Assembly (NCBI RefSeq): GCF_020055635.1
Contig: NZ_JAIPUT010000027.1
Location: forward strand, 1-57,776
Source: Marivita sp.
GTDB taxonomy: Bacteria; Pseudomonadota; Alphaproteobacteria; Rhodobacterales; Rhodobacteraceae
Length of the DNA stretch: 57,776 nt
Direction: 5' to 3'
In this document: one piece after another, positions 8,526 through 43,154 of the stretch
Layout of the letters: the number at the start of each line of letters is the position of its first letter
Numbering within the stretch: position 1 is the first letter of the stretch
Notes under the pieces: generated by a model
What the model saw: the letters and a program-made list of their open reading frames with translations, nothing else
Database searches by the model: none
What the model was told of the DNA's origin: nothing
Program-made: the position numbers and the translations under genes

Positions 8526-8905
8526 CGCGCGGAGGGCCGGATGGCCGCCCCCGACAAGGGGGAGGAAAGTCCGGACTCCCTGAAGCAACGGTGCCGGGTA
8601 ACGCCCGGGCAGGGCAACCTGACGGAAAGCGCCACAGAAAACAGACCGCCCCGATTTCGGTCGGGGCAAGGGTGAAACGGTGGGGTAAGAGCCCACCGGG
8701 GGGCTGGCAACAGTCCCCGCATGGCAAGCCCCACCGGGAGCAATGCCGAATAGGGGGATCGCGCCGCGCGTCGGCAGGGTCGCTTCAGCCCAGATCCCCG
8801 GGTTGGCAGCACGAGGCCGGTGGCAACATCGGTCCCAGAGGAATGGTCATCCAACCTCGGGGCAACCCGAGGGGGACAGAATCCGGCTTACAGGCCCTCC
8901 GCGCG
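8526..8905 (+). ncRNA. rnpB: RNase P RNA, bacterial type A
   Basis: The catalytic RNA of RNase P, which trims the 5' leader from tRNA precursors. The ends pair in the P1 helix: CGCGCGGAGGGCC at the start and GGCCCTCCGCGCG at 8893-8905. The conserved 5' core GAGGAAAGTCCGGACTCC and the 3' core ending ACAGAATCCGGCTTACAGG are present, as is the GGTAAGAGCCCACCG region. A T-run (8906-8910) after P1 marks termination. The length of about 380 nucleotides is normal. rpmG follows, an arrangement I recall from related genomes. Open frames across this stretch are spurious. Confidence 0.95.
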
Positions 8906-9028
8906 TTTTTCTGTCCGCCTGAAGCAAAGAACCCCGCGTGAAGGGTTGACTCGGTCGCGCGCACGGGTAGAAGGCGGCGTTCAAGATGACATTCACGGGC
9001 AGTCCTTGCCCGATGCAGGAGACGACCC

Positions 9029-13550: not shown

Positions 13551-15068
13551 ATGCGAAGGCAAGCACGAGTCCTGTCAGGGTTGAGACACGCCAAGGTCGA
13601 GACCGGCCTTCCGTCATTCTCGGACGAGGCAAAAGCCAAGTTGTCGGCCAGATTCGCGGGCTCCGTCACCTATGCGGACATGCCGGGCTACAATGACGCC
13701 CGCATGGGCTTCATGCACACCTATCAAAGCTTTCCGCAGATCATCGGCTATTGCGTCTGCGAAAGCGACGTGGTCGCGATGTTGGCTTTTGCGCGGGATT
13801 GCGGGCTGAAGGTCGTCGCGCGGGCGGGCGGCCATTCGACGGCGGGGTTTTCCGTCAACGATCAGGTCGTGGTCGACACCAGCGGCCTGTCGCATGTGCT
13901 GATCGACAAGAACGCGCGGCGTGCCCGCGTCGGGGCCGGCGCGAATTTCCGCAAGCTGAACCTGATGCTGGACGGCACCGGCCTGCACGTTCCGGGCGGC
14001 GGCTGCGAAACCGTCTGTGTCGCGGGATACATGCAGGGCGGCGGCTACGGGTTCACCTCGCGGCTCTTCGGGATGAATTGCGACCTCGTCGAGGCGGTCA
14101 CGATGGTGCTTGCCGACGGCAAGGTCGTCCGCGCCTCCGAGGACGAGCACACCGACCTTTTCTGGGCGGTGCGCGGCGGCACCGGCAACCAGTTCGGCAT
14201 CCTGACCGAGATCGAATACCGCCTGGTCGAACTTGACAGGCTGTTCGCCTTCGGGCTGCGGTTTCCCCTGACCAGCCGGGCCGGGATCGACACCGCCTGT
14301 CGCGTTCTGCAGGATCTGCAGACGGGCTATACTGATGGCGGCGCCCCGGGGGTCGGGCTTCAGGCGCTTCTGATGAACCTGCCGACCAAGGACAAGCCCG
14401 AGGCGCAGGAACCGGGGCTGATGATCCGCGGGGTGTTCGACGGCACCGAAGAACAGGCCCGCGCGGCGATCCAGCCGCTTCTGGCGCATGTCACCGACGA
14501 GGCGACGCAGATCGAGATATGGCAGACCGGACGCTACCTGCATCTCAACGAGATCCTTTTGCAGACGGCGCACCCGCCGGGCATCGACATGCCGGCGGTG
14601 TCGATGAACACCAAGCCGCTGGTCGACAGCCGCATCCTGCCTGTTCATCACGACTCGGACAGGTGGCGCGAGATCGTCACGCTTTTCCTCGCCGCGCCGG
14701 ACAAGACCAGCTTCATCGCGATGGAATGCTACGGCGGCGCGATCAATGACATTCCCCCCGACAAGACGGCCTTTGTCCACCGCACCGACAGCCTCGACAT
14801 GTTCGCCTGGTCCTTCTGGACCTTCGACGCCACCCGCGATTCCGCGATCGGGTGGCTGGACGATTTCGGGCGGATCGCGGGCAGCATGGCCGTGGACAGC
14901 ACGGGCCTCCAGCGGCGCTACCAGAATTATCCGCGTCGCGGCACCCAGGATTTCGGCGACGCCTATTTCGGCACGAATCTCGACCGCCTGCTCCGCCACA
15001 AGCAGACCTACGATCCGACCGGTCTGTTCGATTTCGAGCAGGGCCTGATGCGCTGCGAGGGCTCATGA
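13551..15068 (+). CDS. FAD-dependent oxidase, berberine-bridge/PCMH type
   Basis: A 505-residue flavoprotein. The FAD-binding PCMH domain spans about 60-240; AGGHSTAG (H95) and PGGGCETV (C152) correspond to the histidine and cysteine that hold FAD covalently in berberine bridge enzyme and gluco-oligosaccharide oxidase, so bicovalent flavin is likely. The C-terminal BBE segment is present (RYQNYPRRG, then FGTNLDRLLRHKQTYDPTGL). There is no signal peptide. Such enzymes oxidise alcohols, sugars or amines using O2. It is the first gene of the five-gene operon (its stop overlaps the next ATG), which suggests it acts on the same substrate or product as the LodA-like proteins. The substrate is unknown. 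Confidence 0.88.
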   Translation: MRRQARVLSGLRHAKVETGLPSFSDEAKAKLSARFAGSVTYADMPGYNDARMGFMHTYQSFPQIIGYCVCESDVVAMLAFARDCGLKVVARAGGHSTAGFSVNDQVVVDTSGLSHVLIDKNARRARVGAGANFRKLNLMLDGTGLHVPGGGCETVCVAGYMQGGGYGFTSRLFGMNCDLVEAVTMVLADGKVVRASEDEHTDLFWAVRGGTGNQFGILTEIEYRLVELDRLFAFGLRFPLTSRAGIDTACRVLQDLQTGYTDGGAPGVGLQALLMNLPTKDKPEAQEPGLMIRGVFDGTEEQARAAIQPLLAHVTDEATQIEIWQTGRYLHLNEILLQTAHPPGIDMPAVSMNTKPLVDSRILPVHHDSDRWREIVTLFLAAPDKTSFIAMECYGGAINDIPPDKTAFVHRTDSLDMFAWSFWTFDATRDSAIGWLDDFGRIAGSMAVDSTGLQRRYQNYPRRGTQDFGDAYFGTNLDRLLRHKQTYDPTGLFDFEQGLMRCEGS

Positions 15069-16933
15069 CCGACAAAGGACACACGGCCGGGACCTGCGCC
15101 TGCAAGAGCGCCAACGGAACAGCCTGCGCGCCCTGGTGCGGGCGCGACCCGATGTCCGGCAAGATCATCGGGGTCTATCTCGATCCACCGATGGCCATTG
15201 CCCGTGTCGGCGGCGCCAGGCACCCGATGGACGCCTACACCTGGGAGATCGACGAGAACCCGCATCGCGGCGTGCAGACCCGGATCGTGCCTGCGCCGTC
15301 GCTGCACCCGAGATCCGAACGTGGCGACGGGCACTGGCCGCACCGGCTGGTCGTGCACAGGCCCGAACGGATCACCTTCAAGGACGATCACGGGCACATC
15401 AAACCCGTGGCGCCGTTCTTCGAGCTGTGGGCGCGGGTGCAGGACGACACTGGCAGCACCGTGTCCGTGCCGGTGACCGAGACCTTCCTGACCGCACGGG
15501 GCGCATCGCTTGCCGACGTGGTCTTCACCGTCGATGCAGGCAACCGCAAGGCGCAGTCGCGCACCAAGCTGGCCTCCTGTGCAGCCCTTGCCCATGTCGT
15601 CTTCGCCGCCGACAGCTACCGTCCGCACCGGCTCGACGCGATCAGCCCGCGCACCCGCGACCAGGTGCCCTTGGTGCGCCCCGACGCGCCGCTGCCGCTG
15701 GGCAGCGTCCAGACCTTCAAGCCCAACCGCGACGACTGGTCCTGCCAGACGCGGCTCGACCAGGTGCGCCTGCGCTTCACCCCGGGCAAGGGCGACACGT
15801 TCGGCCCGCCGGATGCCGGCATCGCCACCGCCTCGCCGCGCACGCCGGGGGATTTCGAACCGGCAGTCACCGAATATGGCACCGCCCATGCGATGACACG
15901 GCCCGAAAACCGCTTTCTCAGCCCCGACACGCCGTGGTCCGGGTTCAACTTCCGCACCGGCGGCACGCCGAAATGGCCGACCCCGCAAGACAGCTATGAC
16001 GGCGCGCGCGAAGGCGCGGGGGATGGCTGGGGCACGATCGATGACACCTGCGACGTGATCCTGCAGGCCTCCCTGACCATCGGTGGCCGCAAGTTCAGGG
16101 CGATGGCCCGCGCCTTTGCCGGCCCGCCCGATTTCGCGCCGGATCGTCGCCCGATGTATTCGATCCGCGACGAGCTGGAAGATCGCGAACTGCCCAGCCC
16201 GGTTCCCGACATCGACACGACACCGGACGAGATCCTCGACCTCTTCCGGCGCATTTTCGAAACCGCGAGCCTGGTCAATCTCGATCAGCGCCGGGCCTGG
16301 GCCTTGGCCGGGAACGCCGGGATGCTGGGCGGATCGGGTCCCGATGATCCGGATTGGGATGACGGGATTTCCCCCCGCCTCGGCCCGAAAAGCATGCGCG
16401 CAGACGACGCGCCTTATGCCCAGATCACGCCGGACTACACCCCTGGCCAGGGCGACACCCGCGTGCCCAGCGCGGGCCCGCACGAGGCGCTGCCCTACAC
16501 GATGGTCGTACAGCAGGTGCACGCCCGCATGGCCGACAGCCCGGTGCTGCGCGAATTCCTTGCCCGGCGGCCGGACCGGGTGCGGCAGATCATCCGCCCG
16601 CCCTTTGGCCGCGTCGCCGATCTTCCCGCCCGCGTCGGCATCCGCAAACCGGCCGAGGTGCCGGTGGGCAAATGGGATGCCGACCCGACCGACGGCGCAG
16701 ACCCCCGGCAGCCCTCCGAGACGGCCCCGCCGCGCTACCGCGATCCGCGTGACGTGATGGACATTGCCTATGACATGCGCATGCCCCCCTTCATGCGCCA
16801 TTCCATGGGGGTCCCGCTCAGCATCACGCGGCGGCAGTATGACATGCTGATGGGCTATCTCGACAGGCTGGAAACCGACCCGCTCTGGCGCGCCGATGCT
16901 GCATCCGGCAAGAGGGAGCACGACAATGGCTAA
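15065..16933 (+). CDS. LodA/GoxA-like protein, N-terminal half
   Basis: A 622-residue protein starting at the ATGA overlap at 15065. After a cysteine-rich leader (C11, C13, C21, C25) it resembles the N-terminal part of LodA/GoxA quinoprotein oxidases: IIGVYLDPPMAIARVGG (residues 34-50) matches the family's IHPPIGIARVG opening, FKDDHGHIKPVAPFF (105-119) matches their FKD-x-G-x-IKRQAARF segment, and VVFTVDAGNRKA matches the WTVHLANKKA segment. The later part (about 330-620) has no motif I recognise. The Cys/Trp quinone-forming region expected near the C-terminus is not here; a matching segment lies in the next gene. The stop overlaps the next start by eight bases. There is no signal peptide. 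Confidence 0.7.
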   Translation: MTDKGHTAGTCACKSANGTACAPWCGRDPMSGKIIGVYLDPPMAIARVGGARHPMDAYTWEIDENPHRGVQTRIVPAPSLHPRSERGDGHWPHRLVVHRPERITFKDDHGHIKPVAPFFELWARVQDDTGSTVSVPVTETFLTARGASLADVVFTVDAGNRKAQSRTKLASCAALAHVVFAADSYRPHRLDAISPRTRDQVPLVRPDAPLPLGSVQTFKPNRDDWSCQTRLDQVRLRFTPGKGDTFGPPDAGIATASPRTPGDFEPAVTEYGTAHAMTRPENRFLSPDTPWSGFNFRTGGTPKWPTPQDSYDGAREGAGDGWGTIDDTCDVILQASLTIGGRKFRAMARAFAGPPDFAPDRRPMYSIRDELEDRELPSPVPDIDTTPDEILDLFRRIFETASLVNLDQRRAWALAGNAGMLGGSGPDDPDWDDGISPRLGPKSMRADDAPYAQITPDYTPGQGDTRVPSAGPHEALPYTMVVQQVHARMADSPVLREFLARRPDRVRQIIRPPFGRVADLPARVGIRKPAEVPVGKWDADPTDGADPRQPSETAPPRYRDPRDVMDIAYDMRMPPFMRHSMGVPLSITRRQYDMLMGYLDRLETDPLWRADAASGKREHDNG

Positions 16934-18755
16934 GCCGCCCGAACCTCTGAACCGCGCGGCCATCCTTGGTCCGCCCTATCCGCAGCCGGTGCTGGGCAAC
17001 CCGGTCTCGAGCCTGATGGAATCGGGGGTGGGGAATTGTTACCCCGGTCTCGAATTCGACATCCGCCAGCTGGATGTGCGGTTCTTTCCCGGACTGACCT
17101 TCGAATTCCTCGGGCTGGAACCGGCAGGCCCGGATGGCACGCAGGGCGTGCGGCTGGTCAATGCCGAGGCCGAAAGCGACCCCCTGTTCGACGACCCCGC
17201 GCCGTGGCTGAAGGCGCTGAAACGACAGCTGAACGGCCCCGAAGGCGGCGCGCTGGGGGATGGCGACTGGTACCTGCACGCCGTCGCGCAGCACGGCAGC
17301 CGCATCGAGCTTTACGATTTCAACGTCTTCCAGAACGCCGTGCAGATGACGCCGTACGAGGGCGAAACCTGCTGGTGGATCATCCGCGGCGTCGAGGCGG
17401 ATGTCGACCTGACCGTGGAGCTGACGCAGCGCGCGCCAAGCGGCCAGCCCCTTGGCAACCCGGTGGTGCTGCATGGGCGTCGACGGCATTTCCTCGATGA
17501 CACGGGCATGATCCCGGACGTCTATCGCGCGGGCGAACTGACCGCGTCGATGTGCAGCCCGTGGACCCATGATTTCCGCGACTGCGCCTGCCAGTACTGG
17601 GCCTCCAACCACCCCGACGTGGTGCTCGGAGAGGTTGTCGGCCCGCAGGCCGAAGACGGCAACGCGGCCGAGGACGCCGCGCAGCCCGTGACCTTTCTTG
17701 ACTGGATGCGCCGTCGCGGCCCGGCGCAGGACATCGCTGCGGCGTCCACCCAGGAACGGGCGCGGCCCGAACGTTATGACCCCTACGAGATCAACCTGCG
17801 CTGGCAGGAGCTCGATTTCGTGCTGCACGGAACCGAAACCGACGGTACACCCGAGATGCCGCCGCTGACCGCACTGCACGCAGCTTACCCCTCGCTTCAG
17901 GACGTAATCACCGCCCTGACGGACGACCTTGCCCCGCTCGAATTCACCTTGTCGATGGTCTATCTCTACGCCTTCTTCTCGTTGCGCGCGCCGGAAGACA
18001 TCAGCGAGGACGAGCGCCGGGACTGGCCCGATCTGGCCGACGATCTGCGCGCCGCACGGCAGCTTGTGCTCTCCGTGGCTCTTAGCGAAATGACCCATAT
18101 GCGCTGGGTCAACCAGGTGCTCTGGACGCTGGACCGTGCAGGGCTCTATCCCAAGGGAAAATACAAGCCCATCGTCCAGCCACATAGCGACGCAAGCAAG
18201 ACGGCCGCGGCGGAATCGTCAGACCTTGAAGATCGGGTGCTAGGCCTGCGACCGGCAACGCCGGACGCGATTGCCGATTTCATCGCGGTCGAACGCCCGG
18301 CCAATCGGCTGGACCGCGAATATGCCGGTCTGGTCGATCATCTGCGCGCCAATGCCGACGGCTATCCCGCCGGGCTTTACGAACTGGCGGTGCGCATCGA
18401 CAGCGACGGCTTGCAGCACTACCAGAAGTTCCGGGACGTGAAGCTGATCCTGTCGCGCTACGAGCATGACACGTCGATCTACCTGCGCGACGTCAAGCTG
18501 GCCGATGCCGATGATCCCGCCGTGGCCGACGCGCTTGGCCTGCTGGCCGATATCGTGGACAACACGATAAAAGGCTACCAGGCCGAACGCGCCGATGACA
18601 TGCCCCGCGCGGACGCCTGCATCCAGGCCGCCCGCAGCGCGATGCGCAGCTTTCAGGTCGAGGCCGAGGCGCTGGCCAGCGGGGCCAGGAAACCTGGCGA
18701 AAGTGTGGGCGTTCCGTTCTTTGCCGCATGGCAAGGCCACGGCGATGGTCAGTGA
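16926..18755 (+). CDS. LodA C-terminal-like (CTQ-site) protein fused to a ferritin-like domain
   Basis: A 609-residue two-part protein. Residues about 30-235 look like the quinone-site end of LodA/GoxA: MESGVGNCYPGLEF (31-44) resembles their CVGGxFFPGIE segment, and GELTASMCSPWTHDFRDC (203-220) plus YWASNHPDVV resembles GDxTKxMAxPWQxDFxxC...WWPAQRPDDV. Cysteines C38, C210, C220 and C222 and tryptophans W213 and W225 are candidates for a cysteine tryptophylquinone. Residues about 325-510 form a VioB-type ferritin-like domain: PLEFTLSMVYLYAFF (E339), ALSEMTHMRW (E388, H391) and DSDGLQHYQKF (D494, H498), a plausible diiron site. The gene overlaps both neighbours. Confidence 0.7.
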   Translation: MAKPPEPLNRAAILGPPYPQPVLGNPVSSLMESGVGNCYPGLEFDIRQLDVRFFPGLTFEFLGLEPAGPDGTQGVRLVNAEAESDPLFDDPAPWLKALKRQLNGPEGGALGDGDWYLHAVAQHGSRIELYDFNVFQNAVQMTPYEGETCWWIIRGVEADVDLTVELTQRAPSGQPLGNPVVLHGRRRHFLDDTGMIPDVYRAGELTASMCSPWTHDFRDCACQYWASNHPDVVLGEVVGPQAEDGNAAEDAAQPVTFLDWMRRRGPAQDIAAASTQERARPERYDPYEINLRWQELDFVLHGTETDGTPEMPPLTALHAAYPSLQDVITALTDDLAPLEFTLSMVYLYAFFSLRAPEDISEDERRDWPDLADDLRAARQLVLSVALSEMTHMRWVNQVLWTLDRAGLYPKGKYKPIVQPHSDASKTAAAESSDLEDRVLGLRPATPDAIADFIAVERPANRLDREYAGLVDHLRANADGYPAGLYELAVRIDSDGLQHYQKFRDVKLILSRYEHDTSIYLRDVKLADADDPAVADALGLLADIVDNTIKGYQAERADDMPRADACIQAARSAMRSFQVEAEALASGARKPGESVGVPFFAAWQGHGDGQ

Positions 18756-20064
18756 CCTGATCGCGGCGGCCCGGCCGCGCAGCAAACACGCGCATCTGGC
18801 CGGCCAGGTCGCGCTGATGGCCGAAACGGCGGCGCTCTACCGGTTGGATGACGCGCAGGCGGCACAGCTTGCCGATGGGCTGATGACCGGCGACGCGGGC
18901 ACGTCGGACGCCCTTGGCCGTCTTGGCCTGACGGCGCATGACATCGCGCCGCCCCCCGCCGATCTGACACGTCCGGTGCGGGCGCTGGCGCTCAACGTGG
19001 CGCAGACCTGCAACCTCGCCTGCGTCTATTGCTACGCCTCGGGCGGCACGTTCGGCGGCCCGGACACGCGGATGCCCTGGGACGTGGCGCAAAAGGCGAT
19101 CGACGCGCTGATCGACGACACACCGCCGGGGGGCAGCATCAAGATCGCCTTCATGGGTGGAGAACCGACCGCCGCACGTGCCCTGATCCGGGACAGCGTG
19201 CTGCATGCGCGCCGCCGTGCCGCCAGCCGGGCGATCTCGGTCGGGTTCTCGATCACCACCAACGCGACCCTGCTGACCGAGCAGGACGCGGCGTTCATGG
19301 CCGAGCATGGCTTTGCCGTGACCGTCAGCCTCGACGGTGCGGCTGCCGCCAATGACCGATTGCGCCCGACCCGCGGCGGCTCGGGCAGTTTCGACCGCGC
19401 GGCACGGGGCCTGCAATACCTGACCGCGCATCATGACCGCCTGTCGCTCTCGGCGCGGGTCACCGCCACACCCGACAATCTGGACCTCGGGTCGACGATG
19501 GACGCGCTTGGCGCGCTCGGGTTCACGTCGGTCGGCGTGTCCCCGATGATCACCTCGCCGACCGGCAAGGGCACGCTGGATGGAGAGGATTACGCGACGC
19601 TTCTGGCCGCGATGATCGGCTGCGGCACCGCCTGGATGCAGGCAACGCTCGACCGCAAGCCGCACCCCTTCGCCAATCTTGCCACTGCGCTTGTCGAACT
19701 GCACCGGGGCCAGCCGCGCAGCCATTCCTGCGGTGCGGCGCGCGATTACCTCGCCGTGGACGCCTCGGGCGATTATGCCGCCTGCCACCGGTTCGCCAAG
19801 AACCCGGCCGGGTACATGGGGTCGCTGGGCGACGGTATCGACCACGCGGCGCGCAAGGACTGGCTGGCCGACCGTGCGGTCGAGCGTCAGGTTCCCTGCC
19901 AGACCTGCTGGGCGCGGCGCCTGTGTGGCGGCGGTTGTCACCACGAGGTCCTGAATGCCGGTCGCCCCGCCTGCGACTATGTCCGGGGCTGGCTGCACTT
20001 CGCGATGACCGCCTATGCCCGCCTGATGGATGAACGGCCCGACTGGTTCGATGGCGTCGCCTGA
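18745..20064 (+). CDS. SPASM-domain radical SAM enzyme (QhpD-like peptide maturase)
   Basis: A 439-residue radical SAM protein. The [4Fe-4S] motif CX3CX2C is at C89, C93 and C96 (TCNLACVYCYASGG), then GGEPT and the usual barrel strands. The C-terminal SPASM region has many cysteines (SCGAARDYLAVD, AACHRF, then PCQTCWARRLCGGGCHHE), enough for two auxiliary clusters. Enzymes of this build make thioether and other cross-links in proteins; QhpD cross-links the gamma subunit of quinohemoprotein amine dehydrogenase. The operon position suggests it modifies one of the LodA-like proteins. The ATG at 18745 overlaps the previous gene by 11 bases. Confidence 0.88.
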   Translation: MVSDLIAAARPRSKHAHLAGQVALMAETAALYRLDDAQAAQLADGLMTGDAGTSDALGRLGLTAHDIAPPPADLTRPVRALALNVAQTCNLACVYCYASGGTFGGPDTRMPWDVAQKAIDALIDDTPPGGSIKIAFMGGEPTAARALIRDSVLHARRRAASRAISVGFSITTNATLLTEQDAAFMAEHGFAVTVSLDGAAAANDRLRPTRGGSGSFDRAARGLQYLTAHHDRLSLSARVTATPDNLDLGSTMDALGALGFTSVGVSPMITSPTGKGTLDGEDYATLLAAMIGCGTAWMQATLDRKPHPFANLATALVELHRGQPRSHSCGAARDYLAVDASGDYAACHRFAKNPAGYMGSLGDGIDHAARKDWLADRAVERQVPCQTCWARRLCGGGCHHEVLNAGRPACDYVRGWLHFAMTAYARLMDERPDWFDGVA

Positions 20065-21433
20065 CCTCGACGTCGCGATCCTCGGCGCGGGACCAGCGGG
20101 TGTCGCGGCCGCGCGCGGTCTGCTGGCCGAGGGCTGGCGCGTTGCGGTGATCGACCCCGACCAGCCGCCTGCCCCGCGCATCGAAAGCCTGCCCGCCAAT
20201 GGCCTGGCCCTTGCGCATAGCCTGGGGCTTGGCCCGACCTTGGCAGCAGCGGGGCGCGGCCATGTCGGCGCGATGCGGCTTTACTGGCGCGCACAGCCGG
20301 AAACCCGGAGCTTCGGCCCCGGCGACGCACCGCTGCTGCTGGACCGCACCGTGCTGCATGCCGCCTTGCGCGACAGCATCCCGCCCGAGTGTCTGCGCAG
20401 GGGCCGTGCCCGCGATATCCGGCAGCACGACGAGATCGTGCACCTGGAGATCGGTGGAACACCGATCACGGCCCGCTTCGTCGTCGATGCGCGTGGCCGC
20501 GCCGGCCAGCGTGGCGTGGCAGGGGCAGGTTCCGAGATCGCGCTGGCCTTCACCGCCCGGCTCGACGGGACGCCAGACTGCACGATGCTGTTGCATGCCC
20601 TGCCCGACGGCTGGCTCTGGGCCTGCACCCTGCCCGACGGAACCCTGTCGGGGGCAGTGTTCGTGCCCGCCACCGACATGGCCGGGCTCGACGCGGCCGC
20701 GCGCGCCGCACGGCTGGCCGGGCATCTGGGCGAAGCGGGCCTCGGGCCGCCGCTGGAGGCGCGTGCCGGTGCCGTGGTGCCGGCCATGTTGCAGATGGTG
20801 CAGGACCCGTTCGCGGACCGGCGCATCCTGCGGATCGGCGATGCCGCGCTGGCGCGCAATCCGATCGCGTCGCACGGGCTGGTCCATGCCTTGCGCAGCG
20901 GCGCGCAGGCGGCAGCGGCCGTGGCGACCCTGCTCGATGCGGATGGCGACGATGACGCGGCTCGGGTCTTCATCCGCACCAGCCATCGGAACGCGACCAT
21001 GGCGGCGCAGGACACGACCGCACGTTCGCTTGCCGACCAGTCCCTGCACCGGACCGCGTTCTGGTCGGGCCCCGCCACGAACCGGCCCCCTGTTCAGCCC
21101 ACCCCCGCGCCCATGCCGGACCTGTCGCAACCGCTCGGGCTGCTGCCCCTGCGCCGCATGCCGATGCTCGCGGATGGCCGGATAAGCTGGACCGAGGCGA
21201 TCTGGCTGCCCCGCAGCGGGCGCAGCGCGGCACGGTTCGGCGGAATCGGCGCGGCGGAACTGGCCGGCTTCCTGATGCCGCCTGCCCCGGTGTCCGTCCT
21301 GAAAGCGCGGCTCGAGGCGGCGTTCGGACCGCGGACCGCCCGCGCGCTTCTTCAGGAGTTGCTTGGCGAGGGTGCGCTCAGCGCGCTTGCGCCCGGGCGG
21401 CGTGGTCTTCCAGCAGAGACAGCGCACGGGTGA
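20051..21433 (+). CDS. FAD-dependent monooxygenase, LodB/QhpG-like
   Basis: A 460-residue flavoprotein of the tryptophan-halogenase/p-hydroxybenzoate hydroxylase fold. The dinucleotide fingerprint is at residues 8-35 (VAILGAGPAGVAAARGL), and the second FAD motif is RILRIGDAALARNPIASHGL. LodB is required to make cysteine tryptophylquinone in LodA, and QhpG hydroxylates the tryptophan in quinohemoprotein amine dehydrogenase; this gene is the obvious counterpart here. The start at 20051 overlaps the radical SAM gene by 14 bases. The last 56 bases run tail-to-tail into the cyclase gene on the other strand. Confidence 0.82.
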   Translation: MASPDLDVAILGAGPAGVAAARGLLAEGWRVAVIDPDQPPAPRIESLPANGLALAHSLGLGPTLAAAGRGHVGAMRLYWRAQPETRSFGPGDAPLLLDRTVLHAALRDSIPPECLRRGRARDIRQHDEIVHLEIGGTPITARFVVDARGRAGQRGVAGAGSEIALAFTARLDGTPDCTMLLHALPDGWLWACTLPDGTLSGAVFVPATDMAGLDAAARAARLAGHLGEAGLGPPLEARAGAVVPAMLQMVQDPFADRRILRIGDAALARNPIASHGLVHALRSGAQAAAAVATLLDADGDDDAARVFIRTSHRNATMAAQDTTARSLADQSLHRTAFWSGPATNRPPVQPTPAPMPDLSQPLGLLPLRRMPMLADGRISWTEAIWLPRSGRSAARFGGIGAAELAGFLMPPAPVSVLKARLEAAFGPRTARALLQELLGEGALSALAPGRRGLPAETAHG

Positions 21434-24400
21434 CGTCGCGGCCTTCGTCATGCGAGATCATCCGGTCCAGGACGGCCTGCAACCGCGCCTGCGCCTGTTG
21501 CGATGGCATCGCTTCGACCATGTCGCACAGGATGCGGAGCGCCAGCATGTCGGCGCGCATCTCCTCGGCCACGTCCAGCGCGGCCTCACGCCCCGCCTGG
21601 GCCGCGTCCACATCCCCGCGTGCGGCCAGAACCTGCGCCCGCAGCCGCATCAGCTCGGGACGCACCATCGTTTCTCCCGTGCTTTCCTGCACATGCTCGG
21701 CGTGATCCAGCGCCGCCTCGACAGCGTCAAGGTCGTTCCCGGCCAGATGTGCCTGCGCCAGCAATGCGCCTGTGATGGGCTGGTAATTGTAGGGATTGAC
21801 CTGCCGGAACAACTCGTGTCCGTCGCGCAGCGATGCCAGTTCGCCGGCGGTCGGCGGCAGGTCGCGGCAGATCAGATCTGCCGCCTCGTACATGAAGCCG
21901 CTGGTGCCCCGCATCACGCTCAGATCATGCATCCGGCCCAGGTCTCCGGCCTCGACGGCGCAGGCCATGGCTTCGGGACCGTTCTGCGCCAGCCCCATCA
22001 GCATGGCCCGGAACAGCAACGCCTGCGCCAGCGAATGCACGTGCTCGATCCGCCGCGAATGGCTGACCGAAAAACTGCTGGTCTGGTCCGCGCCGACCGG
22101 ATCGCCACGCAGCCATTGCGCAAAGGACAGGAACACCGCGCTGATCTCGGCATGATCGTAGCCGAGCAGATGCGCCAGCGCCCCGTGCCTGTGTTCGTCA
22201 TATTGTGCGAGCGCCGCGCGCATGCTGGCGATGCATTCGTCAAACGCACCGGTATGCAGCGCCACCGACCCCGCGCAGCGCCGCCCGATCATCAGATAGG
22301 TCTCGTCTTCGGCGGCCTCGGCGGCGTCGCACAGCTGGGCCGCCCAGACCCGGGCCGCGTCATAATTCGCGCCGACCAGCGCATGTGCGAAAAGCGCGAA
22401 CAGCGCGATCAACTCGCTGCGGCTGTCGCCAAGACTGCGGGCGAGGTCCAGTTGCTGTCCGACAAGCGCGCCGACCGCGTCAGACGCGATTCCGAAGCGC
22501 GCCCGGCTGACGGAGGATTTCGCGAAAAGCACCTTGAGCCGCAGGGCATCATGCTCCGGGCTCGGCCCGAGGTGATCCAGCGATGCAAGCGCCCGGTCCA
22601 GATGGTGGTTCGCCTCGATCAGGGCCGACCGCTTGAGCGCCGCTTCTCCGGCTGCGAAGGACAGGGGCGCGGCCTCTTCATGCTGCCCCCCCTGGAAGGC
22701 ATGCCAGGCGAGCTTCCCGGATCTGTCGGTGTTCGACTGGAGCGCCGCCCCCTTGAGGGCCGCGAACACCGCGCGGTGCAGGGCCTCGCGATCGGACTTC
22801 ACGAGGCGTTCGTAGCAGACTTCCTGAAACAGGCTGTGCCGAAGCGTCAGCCGATCGTCATGCGTCCCGCCCGCCGCGCGCAGGATGCCTGCCTCGATCA
22901 TTTCGGCAATCGGCGCATCCAGATCGTCGGGCCTCACGCCCAGGACGCCCGCAAGGGTCGTTGTGTCGGTCGGTTCGTTGAAGACCGCCATCGCCGCCGC
23001 CACGCGATCGCCGCGCCGGAGCCCGTCCAGACGACTTGCGATGCTCTCGTAGATCGAGGCCGGGATCTGGGTGTGCTGGTCGAGCATGGCATCGCTCCAG
23101 CCCCGCGCAGAGCGGGCCAGCGTCTCGAGCATCAGCGGATTGCCGTTGCTGCGCTTCAGGATCGTTCCGGCAACCTGACCGGGCAGCGTTCTGGCACCCA
23201 GATGCTGGTCCATGATCGCGCGCGCGGTGCTCTTGTCCAGCCCGGCAAGCGCGACATGGGTCCGGTCCACATCCTCGGTCCAGATCGAATCGTCGCCATG
23301 GCGCGACGTCGCCAGGATCATGACCGCGCTGCCTTCGGCCTTGCGCGCGCAGGCTTCCAGCAAATCCCGCGTCGTCGGGTCCGACCAGTGGATGTCCTCG
23401 ATCGCGATCAGGCAGGGTTCCGGTCCGGGGCCGACAAGAAACTGCGCCACCGTTTCGAGAAACAGGCTGCGCAGGCGCGCCGGGGCCAGATCGCTGGGCG
23501 CCCGCCCGGCCAGTCCCAGGAATTCCGCAACCGCGTCGACCTGCGCCGGCGTGGCCTCTGCAAACAGCCGGTGCAGGATCTCCCGGCGGACCGAGGGCTC
23601 GGACTCGAGCGTGCCGCCAAGCATGCCTTCCAGCAGCTGGACAACGGGGTGCAACGGGACGCGTTCGGCCAGCGGATCACAGTGGATGCGCAGGATGCGC
23701 GCCTGCCCGTCCTCGAGGCCGCTCAGAAGGTGATCGAGAAGGTTCGACTTGCCGATCCCTGCCTCGCCCGAAACAAGCGCGAAGACGGGCCGGCCCTCGC
23801 GCGCCTGCTGCCAGAGCGCCAGGAGCCGTTCCTCCGCCTCGCGGTGCGCGCCCGGAACGCGAGGCCCGGACGCCGGCTGCGACTTTGCCAGCGCCGGGCT
23901 GGCCGCCGTCACCTCGAAGATCTCGGTCTTGTCAGCGAAGCCTTTCAACGCGGCGGGCGGCAGCGCCCTGAAGCCGAAGGTTTGCGTCGCCAGGCCCTGC
24001 GTCGCGCCGTCCACCAGGATCGTGCCCGGGCGGGCGAATGTCTGGAGGCGCGAGGCCCGGTTCACCGGCGCTCCGATCAGTTGCAGGCCGCGATTCAGGT
24101 CGCGGTCGGGATAGCCGACAATCGCCTTGCCGCTGGCGATGCCGATCCTGGCAACGACGTCCACACGCGCGCCGCCGATCGTCCGTTGCGGCATCTCCGC
24201 GAGCGCGGCATTCAGCGCCAGCGCCGCGCCGATCGCACGATCCGCATCCACGCCGCGCGTCACCGGAAAGCCGAACAGGATGATGACCCCGTCCCCCTGC
24301 AGGGCCGCGACATAACCGCCGTAACGCTGGGCGGCGCGTTGCGCGGCGTCGTAATACTGCTGAAGGATATCGCGCATCTCGTCGGGATCGATCCGCCCGA

Positions 24401-24692
24401 GAAGTTCGGTAAAGCCAACCAGATCGCTGAACAGGACCGAAACGCGCCGCAAGGCGGGTTCCGGGGCCATCATCGTCGCGGGTTCCGGCAGCGCCGCCTC
24501 TCGCTGCTGTGGCCTGAGCCGTTCAAGAAGCTTGCGCCGCTGCCCCAGTGTCAGGCCCAGTTCGCGCAGATCGCCGTCTTCGAGCGTCGTCAGCACGCCC
24601 AGATCGATATCCTCGTCCGCAAATTTGTCCACAAGGTGCGCGAGCCCGACATCCGCGAGGATCGCAACGACATCCGGATCCTGACTGGCCAC
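21378..24692 (-). CDS. SAM-domain/class III adenylate cyclase/AAA ATPase signalling protein
   Basis: A 1104-residue protein if the GTG at 24692 is used; I prefer it because GGGGGA lies six bases upstream and the family usually begins right at the SAM domain. An ATG at 24809 would add 39 unremarkable residues. Order: sterile-alpha-motif domain (about 10-60), class III cyclase domain (about 82-250) with metal-binding aspartates in LFSDLVGF and LQGDGVIILFG, an AAA/STAND ATPase with Walker A GEAGIGKSN and the IAIEDIHWSD Walker B, then a long helical TPR-like tail. It should make cAMP under control of a sensed ligand. The 3' end overlaps the LodB-like gene by 56 bases. Confidence 0.85.
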   Translation of the reverse strand: MASQDPDVVAILADVGLAHLVDKFADEDIDLGVLTTLEDGDLRELGLTLGQRRKLLERLRPQQREAALPEPATMMAPEPALRRVSVLFSDLVGFTELLGRIDPDEMRDILQQYYDAAQRAAQRYGGYVAALQGDGVIILFGFPVTRGVDADRAIGAALALNAALAEMPQRTIGGARVDVVARIGIASGKAIVGYPDRDLNRGLQLIGAPVNRASRLQTFARPGTILVDGATQGLATQTFGFRALPPAALKGFADKTEIFEVTAASPALAKSQPASGPRVPGAHREAEERLLALWQQAREGRPVFALVSGEAGIGKSNLLDHLLSGLEDGQARILRIHCDPLAERVPLHPVVQLLEGMLGGTLESEPSVRREILHRLFAEATPAQVDAVAEFLGLAGRAPSDLAPARLRSLFLETVAQFLVGPGPEPCLIAIEDIHWSDPTTRDLLEACARKAEGSAVMILATSRHGDDSIWTEDVDRTHVALAGLDKSTARAIMDQHLGARTLPGQVAGTILKRSNGNPLMLETLARSARGWSDAMLDQHTQIPASIYESIASRLDGLRRGDRVAAAMAVFNEPTDTTTLAGVLGVRPDDLDAPIAEMIEAGILRAAGGTHDDRLTLRHSLFQEVCYERLVKSDREALHRAVFAALKGAALQSNTDRSGKLAWHAFQGGQHEEAAPLSFAAGEAALKRSALIEANHHLDRALASLDHLGPSPEHDALRLKVLFAKSSVSRARFGIASDAVGALVGQQLDLARSLGDSRSELIALFALFAHALVGANYDAARVWAAQLCDAAEAAEDETYLMIGRRCAGSVALHTGAFDECIASMRAALAQYDEHRHGALAHLLGYDHAEISAVFLSFAQWLRGDPVGADQTSSFSVSHSRRIEHVHSLAQALLFRAMLMGLAQNGPEAMACAVEAGDLGRMHDLSVMRGTSGFMYEAADLICRDLPPTAGELASLRDGHELFRQVNPYNYQPITGALLAQAHLAGNDLDAVEAALDHAEHVQESTGETMVRPELMRLRAQVLAARGDVDAAQAGREAALDVAEEMRADMLALRILCDMVEAMPSQQAQARLQAVLDRMISHDEGRDVTRALSLLEDHAARAQAR

Positions 24693-24903
24693 GCTGAGTC
24701 CCCCGCTCTGCTCTGGACGAGGAAAAACAAAAGCTTCAACCGTCCTCTCCAGCTTAACCTGACATAGCTTCCCCTGGGGAAACTGCAAAGCATTCATCCT
24801 GCTTTTCATGCCCGCCGGTCCCGACCGAGGCCATCAGAGAAAACCTTTGCTTTTCGTCACCACGGCTGTTTTACAACCCTTTATTGTATTGACGGATCCG
24901 GTC

Positions 24904-43080: not shown

Positions 43081-43154
43081 GGCGAGTTGGCGGAGTGGTG
43101 ACGCAGCGGATTGCAAATCCGTGTACACCGGTTCGATTCCGGTACTCGCCTCCA
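43081..43154 (+). tRNA. tRNA-Cys (anticodon GCA)
   Basis: A 74-base tRNA with encoded CCA. Acceptor stem GGCGAGT (43081-43087) pairs with ACTCGCC (43144-43150); the discriminator base is U, as tRNA-Cys requires. The anticodon arm GGATTGCAAATCC carries GCA, and the T arm is CCGGTTCGATTCCGG. A degraded permease gene begins about 55 bases further on. Confidence 0.97.

Follow-up and report, generated by a model that had tools for sequence, protein, structure and literature searches.

What kind of enzyme is made from an operon that places a radical S-adenosylmethionine (SAM) enzyme and a flavin monooxygenase behind two portions of a LodA-like quinoprotein? The question is raised by five genes (13551-21433) of Marivita sp. 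(Rhodobacteraceae; contig NZ_JAIPUT010000027.1, assembly GCF_020055635.1), within an analysed stretch of 57,776 nucleotides referred to below as the window. LodA and GoxA form their quinone with a flavoprotein (PMC4417212, PMC7876137), whereas the flavoprotein QhpG of the quinohemoprotein amine dehydrogenase (QHNDH) system acts on QhpC in complex with the radical SAM enzyme QhpD, and QhpG is compared with LodB and GoxB as a separate system (PMC7876137). The Marivita operon probably encodes a two-chain quinone oxidase of the LodA type matured in the manner of QhpD and QhpG, in which the radical SAM enzyme would form thioethers and cysteine tryptophylquinone (CTQ) would arise by way of the flavoprotein.

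The five genes, designated A to E, are co-directional on the plus strand and overlap at every junction (by 4, 8, 11 and 14 bases). They encode a flavin adenine dinucleotide (FAD)-dependent oxidase of the BBE type, an N-terminal and a C-terminal LodA-like chain, a SPASM radical SAM enzyme and a flavin monooxygenase; frames, junctions and domain matches agree with the initial annotation, which was made from the sequence without database searches.

A LodA-type protein in two chains

The product of gene B (15065-16933) has no Pfam match of its own and a weak match to GoxA (E-value 0.016), and it resembles the N-terminal part of LodA by hhalign, by comparison of its predicted fold with VIA-align, and through a LodA_N match in a relative; the LodA_N fold of the LodA/GoxA family is present in this chain. 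Its Cys329, in the motif DDTC (16040-16051), is invariant (28 of 28 rows), and GoxA has DDIC at the corresponding place.

The product of gene C (16926-18755) joins a quinone chain resembling the LodA C-terminus to a ferritin-like domain. It matches LodA_C (PF18417) with an E-value of 0.005 (17.0 bits, below the curated cut-off of 25); the same family is found in all 23 aligned C members at E-values up to 0.05 (best 1.1e-5), and hhalign pairs C with LodA relatives at probabilities of 72 and 66. C carries the LodA-type quinone segments PG-[LI]-E and PW-x2-D-x3-C...W, the latter misspelled in the initial annotation as PW-x-DF-x2-C; the sequence is PWTHDFRDC, that is, PW-x2-DF-x2-C. C220 aligns with Cys516 of LodA (3weu numbering, counted) and W225 with the tryptophan of a W-P motif that maps by count to LodA 581; these and D216 correspond to the Cys, Trp and Asp of the LodA quinone site and do not vary in an alignment of 29 C proteins.

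These matches support the view that B and C correspond, in order, to the N- and C-terminal parts of LodA, and the proposal of a two-chain LodA-like protein is borne out by the separation of the two genes in 29 of 29 loci. The anticipated structural match to both halves of LodA is found for B by profile and by fold, and for C by profile only, the fold search of C having seen its ferritin-like part. The single chain with a LodB-type partner that characterizes LodA and GoxA is not found here: there are two genes, the flavoprotein is QhpG-like, and C has three extra conserved Cys. The quinone Cys and Trp are 5 residues apart in C, compared with 65 in LodA (516 and 581) and 15 in the GoxA sequence examined.

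Three further Cys near the N-terminus of B (C13, C21 and C25, within residues 13-25, window 15101-15139) are kept in most rows from five-gene loci but not in most of the distant relatives, and may form a metal site.

Counterparts of the QhpC cross-link residues

In QhpC, thioether bridges connect Cys7 with Glu16, Cys27 with Asp33 and Cys41 with Asp49, and the quinone is formed from Cys37 and Trp43 (PMC8172795); the QhpC sequences examined here fit this numbering. What appears to be new in the Marivita system is that C holds counterparts of these residues, namely the Cys-acid pairs C38-E43, C210-D216 and C222-D231 and the quinone pair C220-W225. They lie in NC38YPGLE43 (C38 to E43 at 17037-17054), the predicted equivalent of the Cys7-Glu16 bridge, and in MC210SPWTHD216FRDC220AC222QYW225ASNHPD231 (C210 to D231 at 17553-17618), which would contain the quinone and the other two thioethers. 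The residues for three Cys-Asp/Glu thioethers and a quinone that typify the QHNDH system are all present in C.

These eight residues (four Cys, three acids and one Trp) are invariant in 29 of 29 aligned C proteins (the window included), no other Cys is invariant, and the four Cys occur in the same order as the four of QhpC. Five additional C proteins (L083-L087) all keep the set from C210 to D231, and all eight residues are found in 32 of the 34 C proteins compared, the other two (L086 and L087) lacking C38 alone. Three spacings are the same in both families (27-33 and 210-216, 6 residues; 27-37 and 210-220, 10; 43-49 and 225-231, 6), and Cys7-Glu16 spans 9 residues where C38-E43 spans 5. A pattern built on the geometry from Cys27 to Asp49, with play at the two variable gaps, was run on 7,742 frames (all loci collected plus the window) and matched 44 of 44 C-like frames, 12 of 12 QhpC-like frames, none of the other 7,686, and nothing in five shuffles of every frame. 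Six single-chain LodA relatives examined by eye are without QhpC-like cross-link residues. The QhpC gamma subunit family (PF08992) has no match in 23 C members at E-values up to 0.05; a P-x-N-x-x-A motif near the N-terminus, common to C and the QhpC leader, is suggestive only.

Maturases related to QhpD and QhpG

Gene D (18745-20064) encodes a SPASM radical SAM enzyme with CxxxCxxC at 19009-19032. Its best NCBIfam match is QhpD (TIGR03906), followed by PapB (243 bits) and the nif11-peptide maturase (211 bits). The first two of these families form thioethers between Cys and an acidic residue, at a carbon other than the alpha carbon (PMC8172795). Of 115 genomes from the class, four encode a protein above the QhpD cut-off (721-744 bits), and the next score below that of D is 104. 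Ten Cys of D, three of them in CxxxCxxC and seven further on, are invariant in 27 of 27 rows, consistent with a radical cluster plus two auxiliary ones. In a tree of 31 chosen radical SAM rows, made by a quick method with the longest outgroups left out, 20 D proteins form one group (support 96, starred) and QhpD another (100, starred). The initial annotation had left room for a maturase of an unrelated peptide system; D instead groups next to QhpD and apart from the other sampled peptide maturases, as a sister group at support 91, short of the starred level.

Gene E (20051-21433) encodes a QhpG-like flavin monooxygenase, whose best NCBIfam match is QhpG (NF049967), ahead of GoxB (69 bits) and LodB (47 bits); the E protein of one relative (L031) passes the QhpG cut-off with 280 bits. 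Ten neighbour proteins of the plasmid loci were scanned, and the five that are E proteins all match QhpG best, that of the Nostoc plasmid (L030) nearly equally with LodB (98 versus 86 bits). In a flavoprotein tree, unrooted and made by a quick method, the LodB rows cluster by themselves and QhpG stands on three rows, five of the eight QhpG-labelled loci (L094, L099, L103, L104 and L106) having yielded no row. Because E is QhpG-like and C has QhpC-like cross-link residues, the operon is best described as applying the QhpD/QhpG strategy to a LodA-type scaffold rather than as LodB plus QhpD. Of the combination of both strategies first proposed for this operon, the radical SAM enzyme and flavin maturase acting on a LodA-type protein are retained, and the LodB strategy is not.

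Gene order and distribution

Among relative loci found by searching with C or D, the genes B, C, D and E occur together in all 29 with a readable region; L006, L007, L015, L025 and L026, which are cut by contig ends, and L019 were left out. The order A-B-C-D-E recurs in 15 further loci (L008-L014, L016-L018 and L020-L024, E being cut by a contig end in L020), and B-D-C plus E is found in six (L027-L030, L034 and L035, with E on the other strand in L027); B is in two frames in L033. The operon is not a chance assembly, because the five-gene order recurs in these 15 loci and the B-C-D-E core in 14 more. Co-occurrence holds for the core, A having been found in one branch only.

Of 13 plasmid records with a match to C, nine were examined and one (Mesorhizobium) was reached via its D gene, H9, H11 and H12 being left out; of 51 with a match to D, twelve were examined, five of which are new systems. 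The hosts are Alpha-, Beta- and Gammaproteobacteria, Nostoc, Streptomyces and Embleya (Pseudomonadota, Cyanobacteriota and Actinomycetota). The split system is rare: a true C is present in three of 101 genomes of the relatives set, including the window's own (a single-chain LodA accounts for a fourth, weak match), and among 398 Pseudomonadota genomes a full match to C is found in the window's own only, two others matching the ferritin-like part alone.

In Mangrovicoccus ximenensis (L019), the last 84 amino acids of B precede C and there is no D in the 0.7 kilobases (kb) before the contig end; this is a decayed or misassembled copy. A tyrosinase gene lies beside the core in L083, and tyrosinase and multicopper oxidase genes in L086, neighbours resembling those of LodA group ID (PMC4417212). 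A Bradyrhizobium plasmid (L084) has a gene annotated as a LodA/GoxA family CTQ-dependent oxidase (16567-17098) approximately 6 kb from its split system.

Ferritin-like domain, gene A and neighbouring features

The ferritin-like domain of C (17871-18725) matches PF12902 with an E-value of 6e-10 (39.7 bits; curated Pfam cut-off 22.3), as do 21 of 23 members scanned at E-values up to 0.05, and its residues E339, E388, H391, D463 and H498 are invariant in 26 of 26 rows. Depending on the locus, this part is fused to C, fused to B or encoded separately. Eight loci (L031-L033 and L083-L087) have a short C of approximately 263-300 amino acids that ends without it; in five of these a same-strand ferritin-like gene immediately precedes B, in two it is divergent, and in L086 none was found in the 17 kb read. 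Since the B chain of the Nostoc plasmid (L030: 4977-6608) also bears such a domain, the domain has moved around between B, C and a gene of its own. VioB also has PF12902. A split VioB-type protein, after VioB and RebD, was considered and rejected; the long PF12902 frame of a Burkholderiales locus (L054; 894 amino acids shown), which we take to be VioB, lacks every LodA quinone motif that was looked for.

The BBE-type oxidase encoded by gene A (13551-15068; Pfam FAD_binding_4 and BBE) keeps His95 (13833-13835) and Cys152 (14004-14006) in 17 of 17 aligned rows, positions presumed to be those of the FAD-carrying residues of BBE enzymes, and A probably carries bicovalent FAD. No such oxidase was found in 14 plasmid relatives; A is accessory to one branch of the family and lies outside the conserved B-C-D-E unit. 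Beyond the operon, a long minus-strand frame (21378-24809) runs tail to tail into the end of gene E, with a 56-base overlap; by eye, its start looks like a nucleotide cyclase that includes an ATPase region. Rfam matches in the window are a bacterial RNase P class A RNA (8529-8906, plus strand) and a tRNA (43081-43151, plus strand).

Proposed maturation and alternatives

In the scheme that we consider probable, B and C would each contribute one chain to a LodA/GoxA-type oxidase that carries a tryptophylquinone cofactor, and C would be the substrate of both maturases. D would form the Cys-to-acid thioether bridges C38-E43, C210-D216 and C222-D231, after which E would hydroxylate Trp225 twice, and Trp225 would close onto Cys220 to give CTQ. 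C assembled with B is predicted to oxidize a primary amine or amino acid, with oxygen as the likely acceptor because none of the five proteins contains a CxxCH heme motif. The ferritin-like part probably provides a metal site that helps to oxidize the cofactor or to handle peroxide, and the oxidase A probably acts on a partner substrate.

Several observations weigh against this scheme. D and E stay under the equivalog cut-offs of the families to which they are closest (282-283 bits against 453 for QhpD, from which D forms a separate clade, and 219 bits against 240 for QhpG). C38 is replaced by Phe in L086 (Mesorhizobium) and by Ser in L087 (Embleya). The distances from Cys37 to Cys41 and to Trp43 (4 and 6 residues) are 2 and 5 in C, and the exact QhpC spacing matches no C protein. 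The discriminating pattern was drawn after both families had been seen, its 44 C-like frames, some repeated in overlapping loci, represent 35 distinct contexts, and the C38 side alone (C.{1,10}PG.E) is unspecific (41 C-like, 12 QhpC-like and 40 other frames, and 228 in five shuffles). Alignment of C with QhpC by hhalign is not significant (probability 0.4%, E-value 0.15; B with QhpC, a negative control, probability 0.2), though the register is the same, and what is claimed between C and QhpC is for this reason a correspondence of motifs and not proven homology. In the predicted structure of C, residues 190-241 and 248-318 have a predicted local distance difference test score under 50, and the fold search covered the ferritin-like domain. 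The co-occurrence of the genes is conditional on the loci having been found with C or D.

In one alternative, E alone would build the cofactor of a two-chain LodA-type oxidase, as LodB does, and D would modify something else, such as B. The flavoprotein-dependent quinone of LodA and GoxA is a precedent, and B too has an invariant Cys (C329); we nevertheless consider this unlikely, because the DDxC Cys of B is also found in GoxA, the invariant Cys of C are exactly four and match those of QhpC in order, all 29 loci retain D, and E is closer to QhpG, the partner of QhpD, than to LodB. Less probable still, and in our judgement quite improbable, is a cross-linked protein without a quinone, in which D would make thioethers, E would hydroxylate once or be structural, and the active site would be the ferritin-like metal centre. 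The invariance of the five residues of that domain and its fusion to, or encoding near, most members fit such a protein, but the C proteins of eight relatives are without the domain, for L086 the 17 kb read showed no gene for it either, and the residues of the LodA quinone site (Cys, Trp and Asp) do not vary. That an ordinary lodAB-type operon has been broken by a frameshift amid unrelated neighbours, as the 8-base overlap of B and C might suggest, is refuted by the gene orders and can practically be dismissed: B and C are separate in all 29 loci, with D between them in six, and E is not LodB-like.

Relationship to known tryptophylquinone enzymes

The likeness of the split system to LodA/LodB and GoxA/GoxB lies in the N- and C-terminal LodA segments, the quinone-site Asp, Cys and Trp, and the adjoining flavoprotein maturase; it differs in having two chains, a QhpD-like radical SAM enzyme and a flavoprotein closer to QhpG. 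With QHNDH (qhpABCDEFG) it shares the kinds of maturase and a set of four Cys, three acidic residues and a Trp spaced much as in QhpC, but Pfam and NCBIfam scans of the five genes found no heme alpha-subunit, beta-propeller subunit, QhpE or QhpF, and the quinone chain has 263-300 amino acids alone, or approximately 600 with the ferritin-like domain, compared with approximately 108 in QhpC. Among the ranthipeptide maturases, PapB, the second-best family of D, makes Cys-Asp S-Cbeta thioethers in freyrasin (PMC8172795), a small peptide, whereas the substrate here is probably a large enzyme chain. Fungal lodA-like genes lie beside PF12902 ferritin-like genes (PMC4417212), as a LodA relative with a ferritin-like partner does here; the Marivita system differs in its radical SAM enzyme, a term absent from the main text of that paper. 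No description of a split or radical-SAM-matured LodA was found among the open-access papers listed, judged by titles or the beginnings of abstracts.

A single-chain LodA relative from the genus of the window (L004: 115-3129, genome G006), fused to an iron-containing redox (Haem_oxygenas_2) domain, has its quinone Cys and Trp five residues apart in DFYQC-HTH-WWPAQRPD, where QhpC reads DLYGC-ADPC-WWPAQVPD, and matches PF08992 weakly (18.1 bits, E-value 0.0027, cut-off 25) besides LodA_N and LodA_C, a hint of kinship between the LodA and QhpC quinone segments. A point against such a kinship is that five other LodA relatives align weakly with QhpC in hhalign (probability 7.9, E-value 0.0044), in a register that pairs the LodA quinone Cys with Cys27 of QhpC and not with Cys37. 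Tentatively, and at slightly less than an even chance, the B-C system would be a surviving intermediate that links LodA/GoxA to QHNDH, with a LodA scaffold, QhpC cross-link residues and QHNDH-type maturases, and would represent a third tryptophylquinone enzyme architecture.

The B-C-D-E unit defines a family of uncharacterized oxidases in three bacterial phyla, and D and C are a probable case of a radical SAM enzyme that cross-links a large enzyme chain, for which the C proteins of L086 and L087 offer a natural test of the three predicted bridges. Tryptophylquinones are reported to be made by very different routes that have converged on one cofactor (PMC7876137), a view that a natural hybrid makes testable. 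If the split system is indeed an intermediate, the two known CTQ families would share one ancestral quinone segment, and their cofactor would not have been reached independently.

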